Origin: Dryocola clanedunensis subsp. sulfonylureivorans
Lineage (GTDB): Bacteria; Pseudomonadota; Gammaproteobacteria; Enterobacterales; Enterobacteriaceae
NCBI RefSeq assembly: GCF_016756775.1
Contig: NZ_JAERMU010000002.1
Span: 186,001 to 250,000 of the forward strand
Length of the DNA: 64,000 nucleotides
Reading direction: 5' to 3'
Each line of letters opens with the position of its first letter. Position 1 is the first letter of the stretch. This document shows positions 18,364 through 64,000 of the stretch, in pieces. The notes below the pieces were generated by a model. It saw only the letters and a program-made list of their open reading frames with translations. It ran no database searches and was not told the DNA's origin. Position numbers and translations under genes: made by a program.

Positions 18364-20427
18364 TTATGCCTTCGCGATGCTCCACGGTTTTTCTGATCCG
18401 CCGCTGTTCAGGTCCGGCTGGTCGCCTTGCGTCCAGTAGTTGGCGGTATAGTTTTGGCCTTTCCAGCTAACCGTTTCGAAGACGCCCCAGGTCTGACCAT
18501 AAATAGTTTCTGCGTTCCATTGAGGATATTCAGAGTCATCATTATCTGGCTCAGGATCTGGAGTAGGTTCCGGGTCTGGATCCGGCGTTGGGTCCGGAAT
18601 GGGATCGACGTCAGGCGTGATAGCAGGCACAACGGTCAGTTCATAACGCTGCTGGGTGGAAGGTTCACCCTGGCTGTCGCGAACAAACAGGGTGAACTGG
18701 TAGAGGGTTTCTTCAGTCACCACCGGTACGCTGAACTCGACGATCGCAGCAGTTTTATCCGCAACGGTAATAGCCGCAGGCACGCCCCAGCTGTAGGTCA
18801 GCGCGTCGTTATCTTCGTCGCTTGAGCCTTTACCCGAAAGCTGAACGGTAGAGCCCCCAACAATATTCATCGCGATTTTGGCGACTGGCGCATGGTTAAC
18901 AACGGGCACTGGCACGTCGTCATCGTCATCTTCGCCGGTAATATTGATGCCTTCAAAATAGAACGGCTGCATATCAACAACTTCATCCACAATTTCACAG
19001 CCCAGGCCTTCGCGAGCCGCGTTGACCAGCACGCCGTTATCCTGATCGATAGTCCAGGTAAACAGGCCGCCGAGGTTACGGCTGGCAGCATAGGCCCCCT
19101 TCGCCTTAACGGAACGTGGCGTATCCAGAGACAGGTAGAGTTTGCTTTGCGGATTAAACAGGTAGTCCGCATCGGCCACTTTGTCGGTGTAGACGTTGAA
19201 GCCGTTGCGACCGCGCTGATTCTCAAGATCAAGGTAGTTATAAATGGTGTCGTACCATTCCGTACAGCCGGACTCAAAGGTACCGGTGGTGGTGCCAGTG
19301 CCCGCTGAATAGCTGCCTTTCAGCGGAGAGAAGGACTCAATTTCAGCGTTGCGGGCATTACGTGAATAGGCGGCATAACCGATATTAATACGGTCAGCAG
19401 GGAAGCCTTCGGCAATCAGGTAATCCACCACCGAATCGATACCCCAGCCATCTTTAACCAGCGCTTTCAGGTTAGTGTGGTGAGTCAGAGTCTCAGCCCA
19501 CGGCGTACCGAAGAAGTCATAGGTCATGACGTTAATGCCGTATAAGCCGGCGTCCAGCAGCGCCTTCACGTTTGAATAGCCAAGGATCTCAACGACCGCA
19601 GAGCTGGCAATCGAAATTTTCACATCGCTACGGTTAATCGCCTTCAGCTCTTTTTTCAGCTCCTTAATCAACAGAGCGTAGTTAGCGCCGTCTTCCGGGC
19701 CAAACGGGTTATTGTTGCCCGCGTCATTCGGGTATTCCCAGTCGATATCCACTTCGCTGAACATCGGGAACTGTTTAAACAGTTTTGCGACGCCTTTAGC
19801 GAAAGTGGAGCGACTCGTATCGCTGGCGGACATATCGTGGAAGCCATTACTCATGGTCCAGCCGCCGATACTCATCGATAAGGCCAGCTCGTGACCCTGT
19901 TGCTTCGCGGCCTGCTGCAGGTTACGCAGCCCACCCACCAGGCCTTTTGACTGTGCCTGGGTGACGGTAGCTGGATTAATGTCTACCCAGCCGGCATCAA
20001 CGTTACAGTTAGTGCTGGACTGGAAATCGCCCCACGGGTCGAGGAAAGTCGGCTCATTGGCGACTTTTTTAGTCTGGTTGGCCGCGTTTGTAATCGTATA
20101 TTGTTTTTCGCCTTTATCACCGACTATTCCAAGGAAACCAACAATGATTTTGTCATAAGCCGTCGGAGAAACATTGGCGAGGTCAAAGCCGCGACCGCGA
20201 CCGGCAGGAAGATCGTTATTTTGTAAACGGCCATCATATTGAGACCAGTCGGTAAAGTAACCGAATACCTTCGGTTTTCCTGCTGTATTATATTTGTTGT
20301 ATACGTAATTCTGTACTCGGGCAGAGGTATAACTATATTTTTCGACTTCCACCGCAGGGTTGAATCCATCCGCAGCATTACTTATTTCAGTATAACCGTC
20401 ACCCTTAATTAATTTGCTCGCAGTCAT
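18364..20427 (-). CDS. Leaderless GH18 chitinase with PKD-like and CBM5/12 domains
   Basis: Secreted-type chitinase of 687 residues. The GH18 barrel (about 50-490) contains SMSIGGW at 184-190 and the catalytic DxDxE as Asp227-Ile-Asp229-Trp-Glu231 (VDIDWEYP). A PKD/Ig-like domain (about 510-600), an acidic Pro/Asp-rich linker (601-633) and a C-terminal CBM5/12 chitin-binding module (634-687, with ANYWTQGDQP) follow. No signal peptide is present: the N terminus is polar (MTASKLIKGDGYTEISNA). Chitinases released by holin/endolysin (type 10) systems also lack one, and an endolysin and holin lie next door. The gene is divergent from a ToxR-like regulator. Confidence 0.9.
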   Translation of the reverse strand: MTASKLIKGDGYTEISNAADGFNPAVEVEKYSYTSARVQNYVYNKYNTAGKPKVFGYFTDWSQYDGRLQNNDLPAGRGRGFDLANVSPTAYDKIIVGFLGIVGDKGEKQYTITNAANQTKKVANEPTFLDPWGDFQSSTNCNVDAGWVDINPATVTQAQSKGLVGGLRNLQQAAKQQGHELALSMSIGGWTMSNGFHDMSASDTSRSTFAKGVAKLFKQFPMFSEVDIDWEYPNDAGNNNPFGPEDGANYALLIKELKKELKAINRSDVKISIASSAVVEILGYSNVKALLDAGLYGINVMTYDFFGTPWAETLTHHTNLKALVKDGWGIDSVVDYLIAEGFPADRINIGYAAYSRNARNAEIESFSPLKGSYSAGTGTTTGTFESGCTEWYDTIYNYLDLENQRGRNGFNVYTDKVADADYLFNPQSKLYLSLDTPRSVKAKGAYAASRNLGGLFTWTIDQDNGVLVNAAREGLGCEIVDEVVDMQPFYFEGINITGEDDDDDVPVPVVNHAPVAKIAMNIVGGSTVQLSGKGSSDEDNDALTYSWGVPAAITVADKTAAIVEFSVPVVTEETLYQFTLFVRDSQGEPSTQQRYELTVVPAITPDVDPIPDPTPDPDPEPTPDPEPDNDDSEYPQWNAETIYGQTWGVFETVSWKGQNYTANYWTQGDQPDLNSGGSEKPWSIAKA

Positions 20428-20836
20428 TATATTTGTCCTTTCGTTTTTAATATGCGACTGATTGCCGCGATGAACATGTTGTCCGTAACCTGCTGTTCAG
20501 ACAAATCATCCTGACTCATTCCTCCTCATTTACCTTATTGATGAAAAAATCTATACATTAAAAAGAATAAATAATTTTTTTAAACATTCATCATTTTTAT
20601 TTGTCGCCCTTCCTGGGGTGCAATGCAAAGAAGACGAGGTAGATAACATTAAGCGGCATTTAATTAGGAATTAAATTCCGTTTTACTTGCCATGCTATTT
20701 GTAATGCACGTCACTAAAAAGACACGCCCATGCTTATTTACTAAATGTAGGTATAGATTAATCTTATCCGCATTATTAATATCCAGGCTCTCGACAAAAA
20801 ATGCCTATCCGTTCTGATAATAGTCAGGTGTATCTA
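20428..20836. other. AT-rich divergent control region, chitinase / ToxR-like regulator
   Basis: This 409-bp gap contains no gene-like frame and is much richer in A+T than the backbone. It must hold the promoters of both divergent genes. A 19-bp inverted repeat (20658-20676) lies about midway. Confidence 0.6.
20658..20676. promoter_or_regulatory. Inverted repeat, candidate operator
   Basis: Perfect repeat ATTTAATT-AGG-AATTAAAT in the chitinase/regulator divergent region. Its symmetry and place suit a dimeric regulator, either the adjacent ToxR-like protein or the LysR protein of the island. The composition is AT-rich, so chance is possible. Confidence 0.35.
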
Positions 20837-21283
20837 ATGAAATGTTATCTAATCAATCATAGCTGTATCTATAATGAAGATAAAAACGAACTTAAAATGG
20901 CAGACAACTCATGTATTGTAAAAATGACATCGATGCGCTGCCGCTGCCTTAGCTATATTATTTCTCATGCCGAGAACGGCATTATCGAAAAAGAGGAGTT
21001 GGCCACTGAACTATGGGGAAACAGGGGGCAATTTGTCAGCGATGCGAATTTGACCCAGATTCTCTATTTAATTCGTCGCGATCTAAAGTCGCTTGGTATA
21101 ACTGACCTTTTCGTCACGGTTCCCCGCCAGGGAATTAAAGTTAACGATAATATCAGTATTGAATCCATGGCCGAGAATAAAAGGCCCACCCTACATATAA
21201 CACGCTGGCAGGTCTTGTTTGCTGTCATGCTGGCAATGACGCTACTGTCCCTGTGCAGCGTCATAGAAATTACCTTATTTTAA
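20837..21283 (+). CDS. ToxR/CadC-like membrane-anchored winged-helix regulator
   Basis: 148-residue protein with an OmpR/ToxR-type winged helix (ELATELWGNRGQ, then DANLTQILYLIRRDLKSLG and the wing VPRQGIKV) and one C-terminal membrane helix (about residues 120-145, VLFAVMLAMTLLSLCSVI) with almost no periplasmic domain. It thus resembles truncated ToxR/CadC-like regulators that bind DNA from the membrane. The start at 20837 has an AGGTG SD; an ATG at 20801 has none. Placed between a chitinase and an endolysin, it is the likely local switch for this lytic release cassette. Confidence 0.75.
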   Translation: MKCYLINHSCIYNEDKNELKMADNSCIVKMTSMRCRCLSYIISHAENGIIEKEELATELWGNRGQFVSDANLTQILYLIRRDLKSLGITDLFVTVPRQGIKVNDNISIESMAENKRPTLHITRWQVLFAVMLAMTLLSLCSVIEITLF

Positions 21284-21304
21284 AAGCGTGAATGGAAGGT
21301 CAAC

Positions 21305-21847
21305 ATGAATAATCCTGTCATAGACGGCATCTTTATGAAAGAAGGTGGCTACGTAAACAACCCTGCAGATAAGGGTGGCCCCACAAACTGGGGGATTACC
21401 GAGGCCGTTGCGCGGGCCCATGGTTTTAAAGGTGATATGCAAGACCTCACCCGCGACGAGGCGTATAGCATCATTGAAGAGGACTACTGGCTTAGGCCTG
21501 GTTTGGATAAGCTTTCGCAGATCTCCATCCCCGTCGCATTTAAGCTGTGCGATACGGCGGTGCATATTGGCCCCAATTACCCAGGGCGCTGGCTGCAGCA
21601 GTGGCTCAACTTATTTAATCAACGGCAAAAGCACTACCCGGATATCACCGTTGATGGTGTGATAGGCGAGAAAACACGCTCATCGTTGCAGCAGTACTTA
21701 TCCTGGCGAGGTACGGAAGGGGAAAAGGTATTGCTCAAGGCGATCAACTGTAGCCAGGGAAATCATTACCTCACTATTAGCGAAAAACGTGAGGCTAATG
21801 AAGAGTTTATTTATGGCTGGCTAAAAGAAAGAATTGCCCTTGATTAA
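21305..21847 (+). CDS. GH108 peptidoglycan muramidase (TtsA/ZliS-like endolysin)
   Basis: 180-residue cell-wall hydrolase. The N-terminal GH108 domain carries the catalytic Glu13 in FMKEGGYVNNPADKGGPTNW, and a C-terminal peptidoglycan-binding segment (ITVDGVIGEKTRSSLQQYL) follows. It has no signal peptide, so it needs a holin to reach the periplasm. Relatives include phage lysozyme-like endolysins and the TtsA muramidase used for typhoid-toxin export in Salmonella. It follows the ToxR-like gene by 21 bp on the same strand, so the two are probably co-transcribed. Its partner holin is convergent, 50 bp away. Confidence 0.85.
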   Translation: MNNPVIDGIFMKEGGYVNNPADKGGPTNWGITEAVARAHGFKGDMQDLTRDEAYSIIEEDYWLRPGLDKLSQISIPVAFKLCDTAVHIGPNYPGRWLQQWLNLFNQRQKHYPDITVDGVIGEKTRSSLQQYLSWRGTEGEKVLLKAINCSQGNHYLTISEKREANEEFIYGWLKERIALD

Positions 21848-55324: not shown

Positions 55325-55346
55325 TACGGCTCCTGAATAAGATTAT

Positions 55347-55472
55347 TATACCCTTTAGCATTCGAATTCCAGGTAGGCGGCAAGGGAGCTTATCCTCAGG
55401 AGCTTACTTAAGTAAGTGACTGGGGTAAGGGAGTGCAGCCAACACCCCTGCAATTTGAAGGATGAAGGGTAT
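55347..55472. repeat. ERIC element (enterobacterial repetitive intergenic consensus)
   Basis: A 126-bp imperfect palindrome bounded by TATACCC and GGGTAT. Its centre reads CAGGAGCTTACTTAAGTAAG followed by TGACTGGGG, which corresponds to the two ERIC core arms. Length fits the canonical 127-bp ERIC. It lies 22 bp from the serB start, so it may affect the serB leader. Confidence 0.9.
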
Positions 55473-55631
55473 CCAGAACAAAACAACGCATGAGGCTACC
55501 CTGTCCACGCCGCTTCTGGCAACATTAAAGTATGCAATGTTAAGACTATGCGGTCATGTCCCCTTTGACCAAATCAGAAATGTCACCCATTGTATTTTGA
55601 GTGAATATTTCATGGCAAAGAGATAATTAGC

Positions 55632-55781
55632 ATGGGTCATAAAGAGCTCGATCGGCTCCAGATTATTCAGGAGTCAGTCAGCCCCACATCACTCTGGGCC
55701 AGAATGCTGCCTGTGCGTTTCTGGCGGGTTTTCGGGTGGTTTGTTGCCGGTTTTACCGCTTATCCGTCAGAAACGCCCTGA
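55632..55781 (+). pseudogene. Possible N-terminal remnant of an ISNCY-type transposase
   Basis: A 49-codon frame starts MGHKELDRLQIIQESV, resembling the start of ISNCY-family transposases (KEL-RL-IIQ pattern). After residue 16 the sequence loses resemblance and soon stops. If real it is a short decayed remnant marking past IS activity; the match rests on few residues and is only suggestive. Confidence 0.35.
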
Positions 55782-56140
55782 GGCCGTTTTAGCAGTGCGT
55801 ACAATTAGGGTGTTATGGTAAATCTCATATGTAACGGCCAATACCTGCTAAGAGCGAGCAGCGGACAATCCATGTCTTATGCCAGTCAACCTAAATCTTT
55901 GTTTAGAACCCATTCCCTTTATAAGTGGGGTGAGGTCAATGGCTGAATTACCCGTGCTGAATCTCTCCCAGTCGAAAAGAACTAAACCGCCGCTCTCCCT
56001 TTTTCCCCAATTACCCGCATTACTGTTGCCAGAAATTAAACACTGAAGACAAAATGAAGCGTGAGACAATAACGCGGGTATGAAATGCCTACCTTGCGGG
56101 TACTGGCTATAGGTGGGAAGGGGTAATTAACCCCCATTTT

Positions 56141-57088
56141 TCAGTCTGGAAGACGGTTATTACACAACTCATCCTGAGCATTCAGGATGACCTCACGCTT
56201 TTCATCAAGCCGGGTTGCAGCGTAGACGTCTATGTTTAGTGTCTGCGATTCGTCGTCGGTGAGCTCTCTGTAGCACAGCCCTTCCTGATTAAAGGTGCAT
56301 TTCGACTGAGGCATCAGGGCAACTCCCTTACCCCTCGCTATATGAGTAAGCATCACGAGTGAATCATCCGGCTCTTTTACCCTTTTAAGGGGGAACTGAA
56401 GCTGATCAAAATAGCCTTCGCACTTGTCATAGAACGACGGGTTGGCGCTTCTGGCGAACCAGAAGAGCGGTAAATCACAGACGTCTGCCAGCGATACCTT
56501 TTCTTTAAGACTTGCAGGGTGCATCGCTGGCATTGCTAACAGAAGCGGCTCGCGACAGACCCATCGATACTGAACGATATCTTCATGGCCGGCCCCCTTT
56601 TCCCCGGTAAGGACGAGATCAAGCGTGTTCTTCGTCAGGCACTGAAGCAGCTGGGCGGAAGTCAGGTTCGGTATTTCAACGTCGTCGCCGACATTCAGCT
56701 TACTAAGCTGTTTGTTAACAGGCTCAATTAACTCAAAATTCATAGTCCGGGTCAAACCGATGCGCAGGGTCTTCTCTGATGAAAGTGAGTCTGTTTTCAG
56801 CTCGCTGAGCTGCTGAAGGATCTTCTCTGCTGTTATTACCAAGGCGCGGCCAGCGTCTGTCAGGCTGACATCATGTGTGCTGCGGCTGAACAGTTGACGC
56901 TCCAGAACGGCTTCAAGACACTTAATCTGACGAGTTAACGGAGGCTGGGTCATTCTGAGCCGTTCGGCGGCTCTGCGAAAGTTCAGTTCATGCGCCACGG
57001 CAAGAAAACACTGAAGCTGTTTAACGCTGGGAAGGTTGTTACTGATGAGGTGACCTGCGGTAGCCATCGATACAATCCGGTCTATCAA
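56141..57088 (-). CDS. LysR-type regulator divergent from the AfsA-type cluster
   Basis: 315-residue LTTR. Helix-turn-helix near the N terminus (LQCFLAVAHELNFRRAAERL then RMTQPPLTRQIKCLE) and a typical effector domain; it resembles CatM/BenM-like members in the HTH. About twelve extra residues precede the usual LTTR start, so a start at a downstream Met is possible. It is divergent from the 57259-63187 operon with a 170-bp shared control region, the classical layout for an LTTR controlling its neighbour with a pathway metabolite as co-inducer. Confidence 0.85.
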   Translation of the reverse strand: MIDRIVSMATAGHLISNNLPSVKQLQCFLAVAHELNFRRAAERLRMTQPPLTRQIKCLEAVLERQLFSRSTHDVSLTDAGRALVITAEKILQQLSELKTDSLSSEKTLRIGLTRTMNFELIEPVNKQLSKLNVGDDVEIPNLTSAQLLQCLTKNTLDLVLTGEKGAGHEDIVQYRWVCREPLLLAMPAMHPASLKEKVSLADVCDLPLFWFARSANPSFYDKCEGYFDQLQFPLKRVKEPDDSLVMLTHIARGKGVALMPQSKCTFNQEGLCYRELTDDESQTLNIDVYAATRLDEKREVILNAQDELCNNRLPD

Positions 57089-57160
57089 AAGTCTTACTCT
57101 ACCATTTTTAAATGCACGGACATATCAAGAAAAACCAAACCAAAACAAAGCATTTAACAT

Positions 57161-57179
57161 TAATATAAAAATTATATTA
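57161..57179. promoter_or_regulatory. Inverted repeat in the LysR/operon divergent region (candidate LTTR box)
   Basis: Perfect repeat TAATATAA-AAA-TTATATTA, 80 bp before the operon's first start codon. It contains several T-N11-A arrangements as expected for LysR recognition sites. The region is AT-rich, so symmetry alone is weak evidence. Confidence 0.4.
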
Positions 57180-57258
57180 CAAACTTAACAATTCCATCTG
57201 CGTCACAGATTGATAAATTCATTCCGAAACTTAATCCAATATCCTTTCGGAGATAATA

Positions 57259-57864
57259 ATGTCATCTAACTATGTGCTGGTATCGCGTTTCCCATTAAAA
57301 AACAACATTTCTACTGATACTCTTTCATCCTTAAAAAACACTGAAAGCAAGCGATATTATTTATGTGAAGAGCCGGGGGTGAATGAATTGCTGGAACTTC
57401 GTTCATTTAATGACATTAAAGAGATCTCATGGGTAGAAGAAGAACTTGATTCCATGTTCCATAACTTTGCTGATGTTCTTTCTGCAGATATCCGTAGAGA
57501 ATTGCTTAAATTTGTCGAATCTCCTATTGACAATGAAAATGACCTTCCTGAAACGGAGTATATTCAACTTCGCCACGTAGAAGTACCAGCGCATAACTAT
57601 CAGCAATACCGCCAGTGGCGTGATGAAACCATTTTCAATGTCGTAAGAGATAATAAAGATAAAATTGAAAGCTTCGAAGCGTTTCACTCACTCATCAGCG
57701 GTGTGCCGGGCGTAATGTTCATCTCTGCCTTTAACGGCAATAAAGACGATTATAAAGAACCCTTTACCAATGCACGCTATAAGGAAATTATCCAGCAGGC
57801 TGGCGATAATTATATCACCGGCGGTAATGAAGGTCTGTATACCCGTATCTATCGTGCCTGTTGA
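57259..57864 (+). CDS. Protein of unknown function, first gene of the AfsA-type operon
   Basis: 201 residues, soluble, acidic, no signal peptide or membrane helix. Two similar-sized halves, each starting with a strand-like segment (NYVLVSRFPLK; EYIQLRHVEVP), and a C-terminal half that ends in GLYTRIYRA suggest duplicated ferredoxin-like (dimeric alpha/beta barrel) folds, as in small cyclases, monooxygenases or EthD/NIPSNAP proteins. This is a structural guess. The codon content is AT-rich compared with flanking core genes. A GGAG SD precedes the ATG, and it lies 17 bp before the AfsA-type gene. Confidence 0.7.
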   Translation: MSSNYVLVSRFPLKNNISTDTLSSLKNTESKRYYLCEEPGVNELLELRSFNDIKEISWVEEELDSMFHNFADVLSADIRRELLKFVESPIDNENDLPETEYIQLRHVEVPAHNYQQYRQWRDETIFNVVRDNKDKIESFEAFHSLISGVPGVMFISAFNGNKDDYKEPFTNARYKEIIQQAGDNYITGGNEGLYTRIYRAC

Positions 57865-57881
57865 TGCTAGAGAATTAACAA

Positions 57882-58658
57882 ATGAACTGTAAAAAACTTG
57901 TTGTTGTCGGCGATATGTTTAATGAATTTGCAAACGGCAAAGACGTCCTGACCATTTCTCAACTTGAATTACTAACGCAGATCCCTGCTAATATTATTGA
58001 TAAAGAACATGAAATTATCATTGGGCAGGGTATACGTAAAGATTTTGCAGGGAAAGTCATTTCAAATCAGGCGAGAAATGCCGTGCATGGAAATAAGCTT
58101 AAAATGTGCTCTCTGGAAAAACTAGTTAACGATAAAAAGAATGCACACTGTCATAAGCGGCTTGAGCAGAATGTTCTTATTGGTTCAGCGGAGCGAACTG
58201 AACATAACGGTGACCTTTTTACCATGCCGTTGCTGATCGATGAACGCTGTGAACTTATGGCCGATCATCAGACCGGCCAGCACATTCAGGGGATGCTTCT
58301 GGTGGAAGCAAGTCGTCAGGCTTTTATCGCCGTGACCGAAGAGTTTATCTATAAACAGGAAACGGGACGTTACTACGTTATCAACAGTATGGCGATTAAC
58401 TTTTCAAGCTTTCTGTTTCCTTTACCTGCGCTGGTCCATTTTGAATACCTTGAAAAAGATGTTAACGAACGCAGAGGACGCTTCAAAGCTAAGATTCGCG
58501 TGACTCAGCACCAGACGCTTTGCGCAACCATGGACGTATCGTTCACGGTGTATTCCTCGGGGCTGATTTCTGAAAAGGAAAAGTCACTAGCTGAGGCGGC
58601 CATGCAGGCGGCAATTGTGGAACAGAAAGGCACGATGATCGGGGTAGTGCATGCCTGA
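57882..58658 (+). CDS. AfsA-type hotdog domain protein (butenolide/A-factor synthase-like)
   Basis: 258 residues. The key block QNVLIGS (about 96-102), then ADHQTGQHIQGMLLVEASRQ (127-146) matches the AfsA hotdog signature DHxxGMLLLEAARQ, with His129, Glu142 and Arg145 in place. AfsA of Streptomyces condenses a beta-ketoacyl thioester with dihydroxyacetone phosphate to start gamma-butyrolactone signals; MmfL does the same for furan signals. Streptomyces AfsA has two hotdog repeats; here one is clear and the N-terminal 95 residues are divergent. A phosphatase, thiolase and exporter in the same operon support a small-molecule role. Function is inferred. Confidence 0.72.
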   Translation: MNCKKLVVVGDMFNEFANGKDVLTISQLELLTQIPANIIDKEHEIIIGQGIRKDFAGKVISNQARNAVHGNKLKMCSLEKLVNDKKNAHCHKRLEQNVLIGSAERTEHNGDLFTMPLLIDERCELMADHQTGQHIQGMLLVEASRQAFIAVTEEFIYKQETGRYYVINSMAINFSSFLFPLPALVHFEYLEKDVNERRGRFKAKIRVTQHQTLCATMDVSFTVYSSGLISEKEKSLAEAAMQAAIVEQKGTMIGVVHA

Positions 58659-59484
58659 ATTAAGTAGTCAGAAATATAATCTGGCTGCTACCACGCAGGG
58701 GCCGCTTTACCCCCCTGCGGAGGTAATGGACCAGGAAGGTAATTTTGTGGTGGTCGGTATGGTCCCCGGAGATAACGGACTGGAATGGCGCAGCGTCATT
58801 GTTTCCGCAGACAGCCAACTTCCTGCATTCGGAGAAGTGGCACCCTATAAGATACTGCGCGACATTGAGGACATGTCACAGGAAGAGTGTAAGGATATTA
58901 TCCTGCACACTCTTCCCTTGCCCGTTCCGTTGAACAATTACGGAATGTTGTTCGCACCTGAGCAACGGCCTCAGGCAAACACCGAAAACCGCCCAAGCCG
59001 GCCTCTGCATGAAGGCTATATTGCAGATTATCGAAGCTGCGATGGCAAACGCCATATCCATCCGATTACTTTGGCAAATTGGATGCGGGCTGAAGGCAGG
59101 CTTGAGGTATTACTTTCGGAAGACCGCAGGCAGGCCCTTTTTAAGTTTTCTTTTCGACATCTTGTCCCTGATAGCGTTTATACCGTCATGAGCCTGCGTG
59201 AAAAAGATTTGGCGACTGAAAATCCGAGTCGTCCGGGGCCGCTGGGAATACCTAACGTATTCATCACCGATCACAACGGCAATGCAGAATACTGGGCAGA
59301 ATTACCTGACCCTTTTCCAGCTAATGAAAGCAATGGAAATCGGATAATTAACGTTGTCGTTCTTTATATGAGCTCCCGCCAGAGCCATGGCGGCGCAATA
59401 GGGCTTTATGGCCTGGGTGGAGACATTCATGCTCATCTGAAACTGAAAAGCCGCTCTTTCGATGAATTCATTACTATAAAGTGA
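58651..59484 (+). CDS. Protein of unknown function, possible beta-sandwich (CHRD-like)
   Basis: 277 residues, soluble, overlapping the AfsA-type gene by 8 bp. The C-terminal half (about 130-265) has alternating strands with the phrases LANWMRAEGRLEVLL, FSFRHLVPDSVYTVM, FITDHNGNAEYWAELPDPFP and YGLGGDIHAHLKLK, loosely recalling CHRD or superoxide-dismutase-like sandwich folds. His and Asp residues in GGDIHAHL and DHNGNAEYW could bind metal. No family can be named with confidence. Overlapping translation suggests it works with the AfsA-type protein. Confidence 0.65.
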   Translation: MPELSSQKYNLAATTQGPLYPPAEVMDQEGNFVVVGMVPGDNGLEWRSVIVSADSQLPAFGEVAPYKILRDIEDMSQEECKDIILHTLPLPVPLNNYGMLFAPEQRPQANTENRPSRPLHEGYIADYRSCDGKRHIHPITLANWMRAEGRLEVLLSEDRRQALFKFSFRHLVPDSVYTVMSLREKDLATENPSRPGPLGIPNVFITDHNGNAEYWAELPDPFPANESNGNRIINVVVLYMSSRQSHGGAIGLYGLGGDIHAHLKLKSRSFDEFITIK

Positions 59485-59493
59485 GAAATAAAT

Positions 59494-59718
59494 ATGCCAT
59501 TTGTTCATATCACCACCTGGCCTGCAAAAGATGAAAGCGAAATTACCGGGATGCAGGAAGATATCACGTTAGCCGTGCATAAATATACCGGCGCACCGCT
59601 TGATAAAATCTCCGTTGTAATTACTGAGATTGAGCCCTCGCGCTGGGCTGATGCAGGTGTCCCCGGAAACCATAAAGAATTTCCGGAAAAAAGTCGTAGG
59701 AAGAGTTACGAGGAATAA
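59494..59718 (+). CDS. 4-oxalocrotonate tautomerase family protein
   Basis: 74-residue tautomerase with Pro as second residue (MPFVHITTWP), exposed by Met removal as the catalytic base. The later EIEPSRWADAG matches the W/G-ring pattern of the family. Such enzymes interconvert keto/enol forms of alpha- or beta-keto acids; in this operon it may isomerise a condensation product. Ten bp after the preceding gene. Confidence 0.8.
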   Translation: MPFVHITTWPAKDESEITGMQEDITLAVHKYTGAPLDKISVVITEIEPSRWADAGVPGNHKEFPEKSRRKSYEE

Positions 59719-59721
59719 ACC

Positions 59722-60375
59722 TTGCATACATCAGCCGCTTTTTTTGACGTCGATGAGACGCTTATAACTGTTAAAAGCATGTTTGATTTTTACGACTTCT
59801 GGTGTCGTGAGAACAATGACGATGACAAGCTCGAAAGCTATATGACTCACTTTCGTTCCGCAGTGAAAAATGGAACTCCACGCGAACAGCTTAACAGAGA
59901 ATATTACAGACAGTTTGCCGGCGTGAACTATAAAGAGCTAGAAGAAGCCGGTGAAAACTGGTTTAGGGCTAAGAGGCTAGATTCCGGATTATTCATAAAT
60001 AGCGCAGTGACAGCCCTGAAAAAACATCAGGCTAATAAGATGCTTACTGTTTTTATCTCTGGATCTATGCGCCCCGTTCTTTCACCGGTTGCAAGTTATC
60101 TGGGCGTAACCGATATCCTCTGCGCACCGCTGGAACTAACGGATGAAGGGATAATAACGGGGGAAATAGGGACACCACAGACAATTGGCAGTGGAAAGAA
60201 AGAGGCGCTTATTAATTTCTGTAGTCAGAAAAAGATAAATGCTGCGGATTGCTATGCCTATGGAGACGATCTTTCAGACATCCCCATGCTCGAATCCGTC
60301 GGCTATCCCGTCTGTGTAGGGAAATATACGGAACTTGCCAGACACGGGATAAACCAGAGTTGGCCAGTTATTTAA
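59722..60375 (+). CDS. HAD-IB family phosphatase
   Basis: 217 residues with all HAD motifs: nucleophile Asp9-x-Asp11-x-Thr13 in FFDVDETLI, Ser in VFISGSMRPV, Lys in GSGKKEAL and the metal-binding YGDDLSDIPML. SerB-like HAD-IB subclass with a helical cap. It starts with TTG, three bases after the tautomerase stop, behind an AGGA SD. Butenolide and furan pathways need removal of the DHAP-derived phosphate (for example MmfP), and this gene supplies a candidate. The actual substrate is unknown. Confidence 0.8.
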   Translation: MHTSAAFFDVDETLITVKSMFDFYDFWCRENNDDDKLESYMTHFRSAVKNGTPREQLNREYYRQFAGVNYKELEEAGENWFRAKRLDSGLFINSAVTALKKHQANKMLTVFISGSMRPVLSPVASYLGVTDILCAPLELTDEGIITGEIGTPQTIGSGKKEALINFCSQKKINAADCYAYGDDLSDIPMLESVGYPVCVGKYTELARHGINQSWPVI

Positions 60376-60395
60376 CCATTCCAGAGGTAAAAAAT

Positions 60396-61616
60396 ATGAA
60401 CACAGAAAAATCCCCGCAGGATATGTCCTTGAGGTCATGGCTTGCCCTGTTTATTCTGGCTCTTTCAACTTTCACCATTGTCACTACAGAGCTGGCGCCT
60501 GTTGGCTTGCTGACACCTATTGCAGAGGGACTCCGTTCTTCCGAAGCAGCGGTGGGCATGACGGTCTCGCTTTATGCCTGGGTCGGCGCACTGAGTGCGC
60601 TTTTTGCTTCAGTCTTTCTGGGCAATGTTGCCAAGAAGCGGCTCCTGCTCATATTGACCGTTATCCTTTTTCTGTCAAACGTGCTTGCCGCTACGGTAAA
60701 TACTTACGCGGTACTGCTTGCGGCACGCGTGCTGGGTGCGCTGGCTCACGGCGCCTTCTGGTCGATGATCGGGGCAACGGCAGTTTCCATCGTACCGGCC
60801 AAATACATCGGCGCCGCAACATCGATTGTTTTTGGAGGGGTGTCGGCTGCTAGTGTGTTTGGCGTACCGGTATCAAATTATATCGGTATTCACCTCGGCT
60901 GGAGACAAGCATTTTGGCTGATGGCGGGGCTCAGCGTGATCGCTTTTGTCGGCATCAGCGTGCTTGTCCCGCAGATAACCACCAAAAGTGCCATCGGTCT
61001 GGAAGCACTTAAAGGCGTGCTTAAATCCTCTGCGCTGTGGAAAATTTATACGGCTACGTTACTGGCTGTGACCGCGCACTTCGCCGCGTTTACTTACATT
61101 GAACCTTGGCTGAATACACAGAATGCCCTTGCTACCTCAACTATACCGGTTGTCCTGTTTATTTACGGTGTCGCAGGCCTCGCTGGCAATTTTCTGACGG
61201 GGATGATTATAGATAAATGCCTCAAGGCCACGGTTTCCATGTCGGTCCTGCTTATCTGCGCGGTACTGATATTTCTGGGGTTGTCCGGGGCAGCACTTTC
61301 AGATACCGCAGTCTTCGCTGCGATGGTTATCTGGGGCGTGGCCGTATCCGGGATCTTCGTAGGGTTCCAGACGTGGGTCTTACGCCTGGCGGAAGACAAA
61401 ACCTTCCCAGCTTCAGCGGTTTACGTTTCATTTTTCAATACTGCTATCGGTTTCGGGGCTTTTGCCGGAGCCTGGATGGTATCCGCTTTTTCTATCCCCA
61501 TGCTCTATATCGTATCGGGGGCCGCCATCGGACTTTCTGTGCTGCTCGTGGCAGTTATCCCAACTCGCGTAGCACCCACTCAAACCGTGCTGGAGAAATC
61601 TTATGAGTCAAACTAA
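60396..61616 (+). CDS. MFS exporter, DHA1 family (SotB/AraJ-like)
   Basis: 406 residues, twelve helices. The N-terminal ALSTFTIVTTELAPVGLLTP motif, then LYAWVGALSALFASVFLGNV and RVLGALAHGAFWSMIG, are typical of DHA1 sugar/drug efflux proteins. The start at 60396 has an AGAGG SD; the frame extends further upstream into the HAD gene without homology. As the only transporter in the operon it is the likely exit route for the product. Confidence 0.85.
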   Translation: MNTEKSPQDMSLRSWLALFILALSTFTIVTTELAPVGLLTPIAEGLRSSEAAVGMTVSLYAWVGALSALFASVFLGNVAKKRLLLILTVILFLSNVLAATVNTYAVLLAARVLGALAHGAFWSMIGATAVSIVPAKYIGAATSIVFGGVSAASVFGVPVSNYIGIHLGWRQAFWLMAGLSVIAFVGISVLVPQITTKSAIGLEALKGVLKSSALWKIYTATLLAVTAHFAAFTYIEPWLNTQNALATSTIPVVLFIYGVAGLAGNFLTGMIIDKCLKATVSMSVLLICAVLIFLGLSGAALSDTAVFAAMVIWGVAVSGIFVGFQTWVLRLAEDKTFPASAVYVSFFNTAIGFGAFAGAWMVSAFSIPMLYIVSGAAIGLSVLLVAVIPTRVAPTQTVLEKSYESN

Positions 61617-62019
61617 CGATCTCACGCGCTATGGCAGAGACATCATGGATCGTCTTGAACCCGGTCTGGCCGATAAAGTGACCGGACGCCTGGGTGAACT
61701 TGACGCCACCTTGCCTGCCCTGATTACCGATTATGCATTTGGCGCTGTGGTTGGCCGTCCCGGGTTGGATCTCAGAACAAGGGAAATGCTCACTGTGGCA
61801 TCACTTGTGACGCTAGGTAACGCCATGCCTCAGCTCGAGTTACACATGAGAGCGGCGCTTAATACCGGCGTTACCCCCGAAGAGCTGCTCGAAATCGTGA
61901 TACAGATGGCCGTTTACGCCGGCGTACCAGCGTGCATGAACGGACTGACAGCTTATCGCGCCGCTATGGCGGCAACCGGCAATACTTTACCCGGACGCAA
62001 GGAGAAAACTGATGAGTGA
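61603..62019 (+). CDS. Carboxymuconolactone decarboxylase family protein
   Basis: 138-residue all-helical CMD/AhpD-like protein. Conserved are RPGLDLRTREMLTVASLVTL, LHMRAALNTGVTPEELLEIV and VYAGVPACMNGL. The CxxC of AhpD is absent (PACMN has one Cys), so a peroxidase role is unlikely and a decarboxylase/lactone role is preferred. Overlaps the MFS gene by 14 bp and the thiolase by 8 bp, indicating tight coupling. Confidence 0.82.
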   Translation: MSQTNDLTRYGRDIMDRLEPGLADKVTGRLGELDATLPALITDYAFGAVVGRPGLDLRTREMLTVASLVTLGNAMPQLELHMRAALNTGVTPEELLEIVIQMAVYAGVPACMNGLTAYRAAMAATGNTLPGRKEKTDE

Positions 62020-63187
62020 AGTCGTTATCGTTTCTGCAAAACGCACGGCAACTGGCGCATTCCAGGGGTCTTTGTCGGATCATTCCGCAGTCGCACTGGG
62101 AAGCTGTGTCATTCGTGCACTTCTTGACGATTCTGGCGTGAAGGCCACTGAAATTTCTCAGGTCATAATGGGACAGGTCCTGACGGCCGGTTGCGGCCAG
62201 AATCCGGCACGGCAATCCGCTCTGAATGCCGGGCTGTCTGTTGAAACGCAGTGCCTGACTATTAACAAGGTTTGTGGATCAGGTCTCAAGTCGGTACATC
62301 TTGGCATGCAGGCGCTGCTGATGGGGGAGGCGGAGTTTGTTATCGCCGGAGGGCAGGAAAGTATGTCCAGCGCACCGCACATCCTGACGTCATCGAGTAC
62401 CGGGACACGGCTTGGAGACAGTAGCATGAAGGATAGCCTGGTGTCTGACGGGCTCTGGGATGCATTTGACGATAATCACATGGGGATCACCGCCGAAAAC
62501 GTTGCGGATAAATTTGGTATCAGTCGTGCAATGCAGGATGAATTCGCCCTATTGTCCCACATTAAGGCGCTGAACGCGCAGGCAAAGGGTATTTTTGACG
62601 GCGAAATTGTTCCTGTGGAATGGCAGAACAGAAAAGGCGAGACCCTGCGGGTAGGTACGGATGAAGGTCCCCGTAAAACCAGCATCGAAAAACTCGGGCA
62701 GCTGAAACCTGTTTTCAGGAAGGGCGGAACTGTGACCGCAGGGAATGCATCCTCACTTAATGACGGCGCTGCGGCAGTCCTTCTCTGCACTCGCAATACG
62801 GCGACCGCACGTGGCCTAACGATTCTCGCCTCGCTGGGGGAGTTTGCCAACTCGGGTATCAAGCCGGCATTAATGGGCGCAGCGCCGGTACAGGCGATCG
62901 CAAACTGTCTTTCCCGTTCGGGCTGGAAACCTGAAGACGTTGAACAGCTAGAGTCGAATGAAGCCTTTGCAGCCCAGGCGCTGGCAGTGATCAGCCAGAC
63001 GGGGATTCCATCGGAGCGCATCAACCCTTACGGTGGTGCAATTGCGCTCGGTCATGCAATCGGATCTTCAGGATGCCGTATCCTGGTGACGCTCGTGCAT
63101 AGTCTAGTACGCAATAATACTAAGCGTGGCATGGCAGCACTATGTGTTGGCGGCGGTGAGGGGGTGGCGCTGAGTGTTTATCGTTGA
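62012..63187 (+). CDS. Thiolase (acetyl-CoA acetyltransferase type)
   Basis: 391-residue degradative/biosynthetic thiolase: nucleophile Cys in INKVCGSGLKSVHLGMQAL, GQESMSSAPH, NASSLNDGAAA, the catalytic His in GGAIALGHAIGSSGCRIL and the second Cys in CVGGGEGVAL. The usual VNEAF motif is SNEAF here. It would form or cleave a beta-ketoacyl-CoA; in this operon it could supply acetoacetyl-CoA as the acyl donor for the AfsA-type condensation. Last gene of the operon. Confidence 0.9.
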   Translation: MSEVVIVSAKRTATGAFQGSLSDHSAVALGSCVIRALLDDSGVKATEISQVIMGQVLTAGCGQNPARQSALNAGLSVETQCLTINKVCGSGLKSVHLGMQALLMGEAEFVIAGGQESMSSAPHILTSSSTGTRLGDSSMKDSLVSDGLWDAFDDNHMGITAENVADKFGISRAMQDEFALLSHIKALNAQAKGIFDGEIVPVEWQNRKGETLRVGTDEGPRKTSIEKLGQLKPVFRKGGTVTAGNASSLNDGAAAVLLCTRNTATARGLTILASLGEFANSGIKPALMGAAPVQAIANCLSRSGWKPEDVEQLESNEAFAAQALAVISQTGIPSERINPYGGAIALGHAIGSSGCRILVTLVHSLVRNNTKRGMAALCVGGGEGVALSVYR

Positions 63188-63287
63188 GAACATCAGCCAG
63201 GCAGGCCCTGCGCTGATGTGAATAAAAAAACCGGGCATCTGCTAATGTCGATCGCTTCTAGATTGGTTGACCGAACGGTGGCTTGTG

Positions 63288-63321
63288 AAAAAAGGGTTCA
63301 TGTTCATCATGGACCCTTTTT
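63288..63321 (+). terminator. Probable terminator of the thiolase operon
   Basis: AAAAAGGGTTCATG pairs with CATGGACCCTTTTT (one G-T wobble) over a five-base loop, ending in T5, about 100 bp after the thiolase stop. Confidence 0.7.
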
Positions 63322-63600
63322 ACACGGAGCCTTCATAAGCCCGCCATCTTCTCAGAGTACGCTCGCAGCCTTTCTGATTCTATCCACTGAGCTTATCCAC
63401 CAGGCGATGACCCTTACAGTCACCGGGAAGCAAAGCTGGGCCGGCAGACAGAGGTTATCAGCAGCCACGTTATTTCAATTATCGAGCAACTGAAACTCAG
63501 CCGTCGGGAAAAGCAGAGCGAAGATATCCGAGGATTATCAGAGAAAAAGCCAAAATGTCCTGAAAGGGAAATACTGGTCATTTAAGGTGACCAGTATTAG

Positions 63601-63626
63601 GGCATAGCCCGGTTTGTGGCTATGCC
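63601..63626 (-). terminator. Hairpin after the aldo/keto reductase stop
   Basis: Perfect nine-bp stem GGCATAGCC / GGCTATGCC with an eight-base loop, 8 bp beyond the stop codon of the minus-strand reductase. No T tract follows directly, so termination may need the next hairpin at 63571-63597. Confidence 0.5.
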
Positions 63627-63634
63627 TGCAGGTT

Positions 63635-64000
63635 TTAGGCGTTAACGCCTTTCATGCCTTCCTCAGAGTACCGACCACCTCTGATCTCAACGTGTTGGTG
63701 AATATCGTTTAGCAAGGCAATGTCTGATTCCTCGAGAATGATATCGACCGCCTGTGCATTTTCAGTCAGGAAAGTGATGTGCTTGGTCCCGGGAATAGGT
63801 ACCAGATTGTCATACTGCGCTAGCAACCAAGCCAGCGCTATTTGCCCCGTAGTGCAATCGTATTTTTCAGCCAGCGGCTCGATTACGTCAAGAAGCTGGA
63901 TGTTATGATCGAGGCTTGCCTGCGTGAATCGCTCATTGTTTTTACGGAAATCGCCTTCAGCAAATTCGCTGTTTTTGCGGAATTTTCCGGTCAGGAACCC
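63635..64000 (-). CDS. Aldo/keto reductase, C-terminal part (gene runs off the right edge)
   Basis: The frame is open to the window end and gives 121 C-terminal residues. GFLTGKFRK, SLDHNIQLLDVIEPLAEKY, TGQIALAWLLAQ and LVPIPGTKHITFLTENAQAV are the typical C-terminal NADP-binding part of YajO/YakC-like AKRs. It is convergent with the AfsA-type operon, so it probably does not belong to it. Substrate unknown. Confidence 0.88.
   Translation of the reverse strand, partial: GFLTGKFRKNSEFAEGDFRKNNERFTQASLDHNIQLLDVIEPLAEKYDCTTGQIALAWLLAQYDNLVPIPGTKHITFLTENAQAVDIILEESDIALLNDIHQHVEIRGGRYSEEGMKGVNA

Follow-up and report, generated by a model that had tools for sequence, protein, structure and literature searches.

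What does a gene cluster built around an AfsA-type protein make in an enteric bacterium? The question is raised by a locus near the end of a 64,000-nucleotide stretch of Dryocola clanedunensis subsp. sulfonylureivorans (contig NZ_JAERMU010000002.1, positions 186,001 to 250,000; the window). There, a LysR-type regulator gene diverges from genes for two proteins without a family name (u1 and u2), an AfsA-family protein, a tautomerase, a HAD-IB phosphatase, a major facilitator superfamily (MFS) exporter, a CMD-family protein and a thiolase (Table 1). The original prediction took this set to be one acquired unit that may make a diffusible butenolide- or furan-like signal. In our view, the cluster is probably a biosynthetic island whose product is a diffusible small-molecule antimicrobial that is exported and that probably also induces its own synthesis.

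The decisive functional link is the orthology of this cluster to one needed for killing in the alphaproteobacterium Ruegeria pomeroyi DSS-3. On the megaplasmid of this strain, the genes run LysR-u1-AfsA-u2-tautomerase-HAD as in the window, whereas the aldo/keto reductase (AKR), CMD and MFS genes form a separate, divergent AKR-CMD-MFS group and a thiolase gene is missing. Identities between the two sets of proteins are 54.7% for u2, 54.8% for u1 (with 69% of the query covered), 37.3% for AfsA, 47.9% for HAD, 50.0% for the tautomerase, 42.3% for MFS and 52.3% for CMD. According to the parts of the 2020 paper drawn on here, the “putative GBL” (γ-butyrolactone) cluster of DSS-3, SPOA0339-0344 with its neighbors, is required for a diffusible, density-dependent killing of diverse bacteria (PMC7426152). 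The six nonkiller insertions in the cluster hit the afsA gene SPOA0342 (three), SPOA0341 (two) and the regulator SPOA0344 (one), and immunity was kept in the afsA mutants but lost in the SPOA0341 and SPOA0344 mutants (PMC7426152). Homologues of SPOA0341-0343 co-occurred in 29 of 35 organisms, with gammaproteobacteria and actinobacteria predominating (PMC7426152). Since the matching set in R. pomeroyi is needed to kill neighbors, we take its enteric counterpart to be a probable chemical weapon and not just a signal of the Streptomyces kind. The same parts of that paper leave the killing molecule unidentified, and we found neither a follow-up on it nor a paper on the enteric cluster or its product in the open-access literature.

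The signaling role in the original prediction survives in part. If the AfsA product were a dedicated butenolide or furan hormone, read by the LysR protein and controlling genes elsewhere, the AfsA family membership, the phosphatase and exporter beside it and the LysR gene with its conserved candidate operator would all be in place. Moreover, afsA of R. pomeroyi is required for the transcription of 10 cluster genes, and the authors, who weigh an antimicrobial and a signal in the parts drawn on and leave both open, keep the signal reading (PMC7426152). However, only 21 of 4,252 R. pomeroyi genes responded to the loss of afsA, including those 10, so that little outside the cluster is controlled, and killing is the sole phenotype found for the orthologous cluster (PMC7426152). 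The tailoring genes also exceed the needs of a GBL signal, the AfsA protein is not canonical, and canonical ScbA proteins coexist near the cluster in three Streptomyces-type genomes (see below). We therefore regard a dedicated signal as unlikely.

As for the operator, the 170-bp spacer between lysR and u1 holds a block conserved in all 10 loci chosen for alignment, including those of Serratia, Ewingella and Vibrio, and all 24 invariant columns fall at window positions 57161-57219. The candidate operator dyad within this block retains four to six of its six pairs in all 10 loci. Given that perfect dyads of the form TAATAT-N7-ATATTA occur 25 times in the window, the conservation, and not the dyad itself, is the evidence for an operator.

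The AfsA membership of the 258-residue protein was confirmed with hidden Markov models (HMMs), with 50.4 bits for PF03756 (Pfam cutoff, 24), and 42 of 42 aligned relatives match this family as well. An identity as a FabZ- or thioesterase-type hotdog was rejected, since the best thioesterase model, 4HBT_2, reached 14.6 bits, below its own cutoff; a profile search of the PDB with the AfsA protein returned only FabZ-like hotdogs (E values of 2.3e-4 and 0.0015). The protein departs from the canonical signal synthase to which it had been likened. It scores 21.4 bits on the ScbA/BarX model NF041195, whose cutoff is 200, and has one AfsA stretch. Across ten genomes with the cluster, each cluster AfsA likewise has one such stretch; of the other AfsA proteins in these genomes, eight have two and one has one. 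Canonical AfsA proteins, taken from genomes that carry the surveyed loci, align with the conserved half of the window protein through their C-terminal hotdog (hhalign, 96.8%; HMM domains), and the two regions share the catalytic hotdog motif. A tree built from 100 hotdog rows has a branch with 100/100 support that sets 12 rows (9 canonical proteins and 3 enteric AfsA-like proteins of ∼330 amino acids) apart from the other 88 (83 cluster proteins and 5 from AfsA-HAD pairs without an adjoining u2). Of 141 candidate rows, 41 were excluded from this tree because of a low score or their length, and these included some genuine canonical open reading frames (ORFs); the program also warned of few columns and long branches. 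By domain count, model score and clade, then, the window AfsA is not a canonical A-factor/GBL synthase; it is a probable phosphorylated-butenolide synthase. Of the seven genomes searched, four, which are Streptomyces-type, have canonical ScbA proteins above cutoff, and in three of these four one lies on the same contig, 8 to 16 kb from the cluster, as if the classical signal acted on the cluster rather than coming from it.

Seven of 392 Enterobacteriaceae genomes, a congener of the window included, have the different AfsA-like protein of ∼330 amino acids (matches L007-L013). Three examples, L035:7980-8972, L036:6153-7142 and L037:7571-8560, group with the canonical proteins, and that of L035 has two AfsA stretches.

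A weapon or signal could also be built on a pentulose or another acceptor, as proposed for AvrD and MmyD, which would lead to a cyclopentanone or a syringolide-like product. The use of acetoacetyl-acyl carrier protein (ACP) together with the AvrD-like MmyD in methylenomycin biosynthesis (PMC12593393, in the parts drawn on), and the arrangement of genes for β-ketoacyl-ACP synthase III (KAS III), ACP and AfsA on a Streptomyces plasmid (L119), speak for such an acceptor. On the other hand, the AvrD family is not among the Pfam matches of the AfsA-type protein at E values of up to 1, a statement about the family model and not about the MmyD and AvrD sequences themselves; the motif agrees with that of the second, C-terminal hotdog in canonical AfsA, and a HAD phosphatase suits a phosphorylated three-carbon acceptor. 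We hold this alternative to be improbable.

The route that we favor for the antimicrobial would start with acetoacetyl-CoA made by the thiolase. The single-hotdog AfsA protein would condense a β-keto thioester with a three-carbon phosphate, most likely dihydroxyacetone phosphate (DHAP), into a phosphorylated butenolide, from which the HAD-IB enzyme would strip the phosphate; with acetoacetyl-CoA and DHAP as the inputs, the three enzymes together would thus give a C7 butenolide. The tautomerase, the PcaC-like CMD protein, the AKR, u1 and u2 might then tailor or neutralize the product, the MFS protein would export it, and the LysR protein may sense the product or a precursor at the conserved operator. 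PcaC itself acts on a lactone. The catalytic motifs that this route calls on are intact, with DVDET and GDDxxD in HAD, the Cys/His/Cys residues of the thiolase, the Pro after Met in the tautomerase and DHxxGxHxxGxxxxEAxRQ in AfsA. For the enteric host, we infer the substrate, the product and the antimicrobial action. The cluster differs from the methylenomycin-furan-type signal set (mmfL/mmfH/mmfP), which combines AfsA and a phosphatase with a flavin-type oxidoreductase, MmfH: AfsA and HAD are present in it, and no flavoenzyme family was found among the family matches of its proteins.

To see which genes stay together, we surveyed the best 80 of 95 relatives from a u2 scan of genome contigs, so that u2 is present by construction. 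The loci reach up to 10 kb to each side, some being ended by contig ends, and comprise 39 from Actinomycetota and 41 from Pseudomonadota (phyla assigned by hand). Across both phyla, a core of AfsA (79/80), HAD (78/80) and u1 (73/80) recurs, followed by the tautomerase (58), MFS and CMD (38 each), LysR (37, with a homologue in 33 of the 41 Pseudomonadota loci), AKR (34), KAS III (27), TetR (26), EamA (24) and thiolase (19). At these u2 loci, AfsA is within 3 kb and on the same strand in all 79 cases, as is u1 in all 73; of the 78 HAD genes, 73 are no farther than 3 kb away and 68 share the strand. The catalytic DxDx[TV] of HAD is kept in 78 of 78, and the strict cluster form of the AfsA motif in 70 of 76. 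Because the gene set recurs in distant bacteria, its co-occurrence is more than chance. Pairwise distances of u1, AfsA, u2 and HAD correlate (Pearson coefficients of 0.82 to 0.90 over 68 rows; 0 of 500 permutations), consistent with common inheritance to which shared phylogeny contributes. The predicted co-occurrence of AfsA, HAD and thiolase thus stands for the first two and not for the thiolase, although 18 of the 19 loci of the order Enterobacterales have one. KAS III is confined to the Actinomycetota (27 of 39 loci, against 0 of 41 in Pseudomonadota); by locus, 18 have only a thiolase, 26 only KAS III and 1 both, an exchange expected of a step that supplies a β-keto thioester. Exporters likewise vary, with MFS alone in 31 loci, EamA alone in 17, both in 7 and neither in 25. 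The Streptomyces plasmid locus L119 reads KAS III-ACP-TauD-AfsA-HAD-u1-u2-AKR. In Shewanella sp. SR44-3 (L068:7169-11071), AKR-MFS-CMD-u2-tautomerase stand with no AfsA, u1 or HAD nearby, and a search of that genome for AfsA, made without a positive control, gave no match; this locus fits a resistance cassette or protective module. L025, L026, L030 and L034 hold AfsA-HAD pairs that lack u1 and a close u2 and represent a broader family of clusters with these two genes; at L030, a weak u2 relative lies 5.8 kb away.

The Shewanella locus, in lacking the synthase, could also be counted toward a catabolic or detoxification operon of the β-ketoadipate type, composed of the thiolase, the PcaC-like CMD protein, the tautomerase and LysR. 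The CMD protein is nearest to PcaC models, the thiolase also matches PcaF models, and LysR and a tautomerase suit aromatic catabolism. Those NCBIfam equivalog scores are, however, all below cutoff, AfsA and HAD are constant where thiolase and CMD are not, and the orthologous R. pomeroyi cluster kills (PMC7426152, in the parts drawn on), which leaves catabolism a very unlikely function. It is possible, and we suggest it tentatively, that the surveyed loci represent a phylum-crossing class of small butenolide-derived antimicrobials. Its marks would be the single-hotdog AfsA branch; u1 and u2, two families with no known place in GBL pathways; a set of protective genes that can be separated from the rest (AKR, MFS, CMD, u2 and the tautomerase); and interchangeable suppliers of the β-keto thioester (thiolase or KAS III).

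Several points weigh against an antimicrobial island. The enteric cluster is known from its genes alone, and the equation of SPOA0341 with u2, SPOA0343 with u1 and SPOA0344 with LysR is one that we infer from gene order alone. The dependence of cluster transcription on afsA in R. pomeroyi also fits a signal (PMC7426152, in the parts drawn on). The cluster label does not form a single group in the AfsA tree (five changes). The alternation of thiolase and KAS III follows phylum and so is not independent evidence, and 35 of the 80 loci have neither within reach; MFS and CMD are each missing in 42 loci and AKR in 46, some of these loci ending at contig ends. Finally, the Shewanella cassette is a single genome and may be a relic.

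That the cluster was acquired as one unit, as had been proposed, is borne out by its borders. The sequences on either side of the insert, next to serB and smp (with smp and lplA beyond the AKR gene), adjoin in alignments of five of five congeners (L172-L176), which represent the empty site, and an exact 11-bp direct repeat, ACATTAAAGTA, stands at both insert edges (L165:3522 and 13104). A cluster 91.4% identical over 7,319 bases is found in Buttiauxella warmboldiae, and the serB neighborhood of the window has no match in the locus of that cluster, so that the two clusters sit at different sites. The AfsA proteins of the window and of B. warmboldiae join that of Erwinia rhapontici in the tree, within Enterobacter and Lelliottia rows; Vibrio adjoins this group, and Erwinia persicina stands apart. 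The insert, the differing flanks and the tree placement argue for horizontal transfer. The cluster is a mobile one, acquired as one unit, with an ancestral core. The AT-rich composition invoked earlier holds for u1 to HAD (39.8 to 49.3% G+C) and not for MFS, CMD and the thiolase (52.7 to 55.2%; window, 54.2%); since low G+C is confined to u1-HAD, the unit may be composite.

The cluster is, as stated before, not standard in Enterobacteriaceae. The AfsA query matched 12 of 392 genomes of the family, 8 of 394 of the order and 2 of 398 of the phylum, the window genome being counted each time. The 12 family matches comprise 2 intact clusters, 1 degraded cluster, 2 AfsA-HAD pairs without u1 and u2 and the 7 different AfsA-like proteins; apart from the window genome, L023 alone thus has the whole set. 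A profile search with u2 matched 1 of 147 relatives (the window genome itself) and 9 of 394 order genomes, three of the nine weakly or partially (G489, G618 and G718), and u2 is present in 2 of 72,556 plasmid records (Ruegeria pomeroyi and Streptomyces sp. YIM 121038). Megablast of the cluster, by which only near matches are detectable, gave no match among 5,426 genomes of E. coli. Two Bartonella sp. genomes (L113 and L114) carry the core cluster as well. Decayed copies were seen as well, with u1 and AfsA fragmented in L024:8367-9346 (G138) and one in-frame TGA in the AfsA gene of Pantoea latae (L050). Such repeated decay fits a costly accessory trait.

All nine described genes, the divergent LysR gene among them, were recovered open and with coordinates and families as described, neighboring genes overlapping or almost abutting (Table 1). 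The AKR gene, complete at L165:11635-12633 (332 amino acids), extends the unit to about ten genes. The ∼0.8 kb between serB and lysR (55325-56140), which spans the insert edge, holds no listed ORF of at least 80 amino acids.

Table 1. Features of the cluster in the window. L165 is the same genome continued past the window end, window position 55539 being L165:3539.
Feature	Position	Strand	Remarks
Acquired insert	55539..64000 (on to ∼65103; L165:3539-13103, ∼9.57 kb)		Between serB and smp
LysR-type regulator, divergent from operon	56141..57088	-	HTH_1 5.5e-20, LysR_substrate 1.5e-18
Candidate LysR operator	57161..57179		Dyad TAATAT-N7-ATATTA containing T-N11-A
Unknown 1 (u1), 201 aa	57259..57864	+	No Pfam/NCBIfam family above cutoff
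Single-hotdog AfsA-family protein, 258 aa	57882..58658	+	PF03756 3e-13, residues 91-222
Unknown 2 (u2), 277 aa	58651..59484	+	Conserved family without a name
4-Oxalocrotonate-tautomerase-type protein, 74 aa	59494..59718	+	PF01361 23.0 bits, cutoff 22
HAD-IB phosphatase	59722..60375	+	TIGR01490 127.5 bits, cutoff 98.3
MFS (DHA1-type) exporter, predicted	60396..61616	+	PF07690 6.8e-34
CMD/PcaC-like protein	61603..62019	+	PF02627 1.4e-19; without CxxC in window protein
Thiolase, acetoacetyl-CoA-type, full catalytic triad	62012..63187	+	TIGR01930 415.5 bits, cutoff 240.55
Aldo/keto reductase (AKR), cut by window end	63635..64000	-	PF00248 7.4e-76

Neither u1 nor u2 matches a Pfam or NCBIfam family above cutoff, the 38 u1 and 41 u2 relatives scanned gave subthreshold matches only, and profile searches of the PDB returned insignificant rows for both. 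An ABM-like fold of u1 is a faint possibility suggested by matches in 3 of 38 members (best E value, 0.033), while an assignment to the D12 methyltransferases (E value of 0.0067, below cutoff, also in 3 of 38 members) was rejected. The 41 aligned u2 members are 52 to 93% identical, with one exception at 48 to 49%. A distant u2 relative of 401 amino acids at L186:9266-10471 has a hydrophobic N terminus that resembles an export signal, and its surroundings contain no gene of the cluster; a marginal u2 match at L187 was dropped, there being no cluster gene there.

Elsewhere in the window, positions 18364-21847 encode a GH18 family enzyme with a PKD domain, followed by a fragment of a CadC-like regulator and a GH108 peptidoglycan hydrolase. 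This stretch, between the gene of an NhaA-type antiporter and dnaJ, is AT-rich (39 to 48% G+C at 20 to 23 kb).

Enteric carriers grow fast and are readily modified, which makes them a direct means of finding the compound. The survey, in which AfsA, HAD, u1 and u2 are constant, points to genes that may protect the producer and cautions against reading each AfsA-domain cluster as a butyrolactone signal.

Among known systems, the A-factor/GBL synthases AfsA, ScbA and BarX have the hotdog catalytic motif in common with the window protein but differ in having two hotdogs and in forming a separate clade. GBL systems use TetR-type receptors. Calls of the antiSMASH “butyrolactone” type exist in enterics and in Xenorhabdus/Photorhabdus (PMC4458695 and PMC10676414, in the parts drawn on), and a locus on a Pantoea integrative and conjugative element has another gene set than the window cluster, with a phosphonate-type pair. 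The methylenomycin cluster has an MFS transporter, mmr. Its proposed opening step joins acetoacetyl-ACP, made by KAS III and ACP, to a sugar unit, and thus resembles our route in linking an acetoacetyl thioester to a small sugar-derived unit beside a resistance exporter, mmr, but differs in using the AvrD-like MmyD (PMC12593393, in the parts drawn on). A chemical precedent is the AfsA-like PBS domain of gladiostatin biosynthesis in Burkholderia gladioli, which condenses a β-keto thioester with DHAP in vitro; it makes the earlier inference of AfsA, DHAP and phosphatase chemistry a good one for a Gram-negative bacterium (PMC7756379, in the parts drawn on). Like the window protein, this domain belongs to the AfsA family; unlike it, the domain is fused to a polyketide synthase and takes part in building a large polyketide (PMC7756379).

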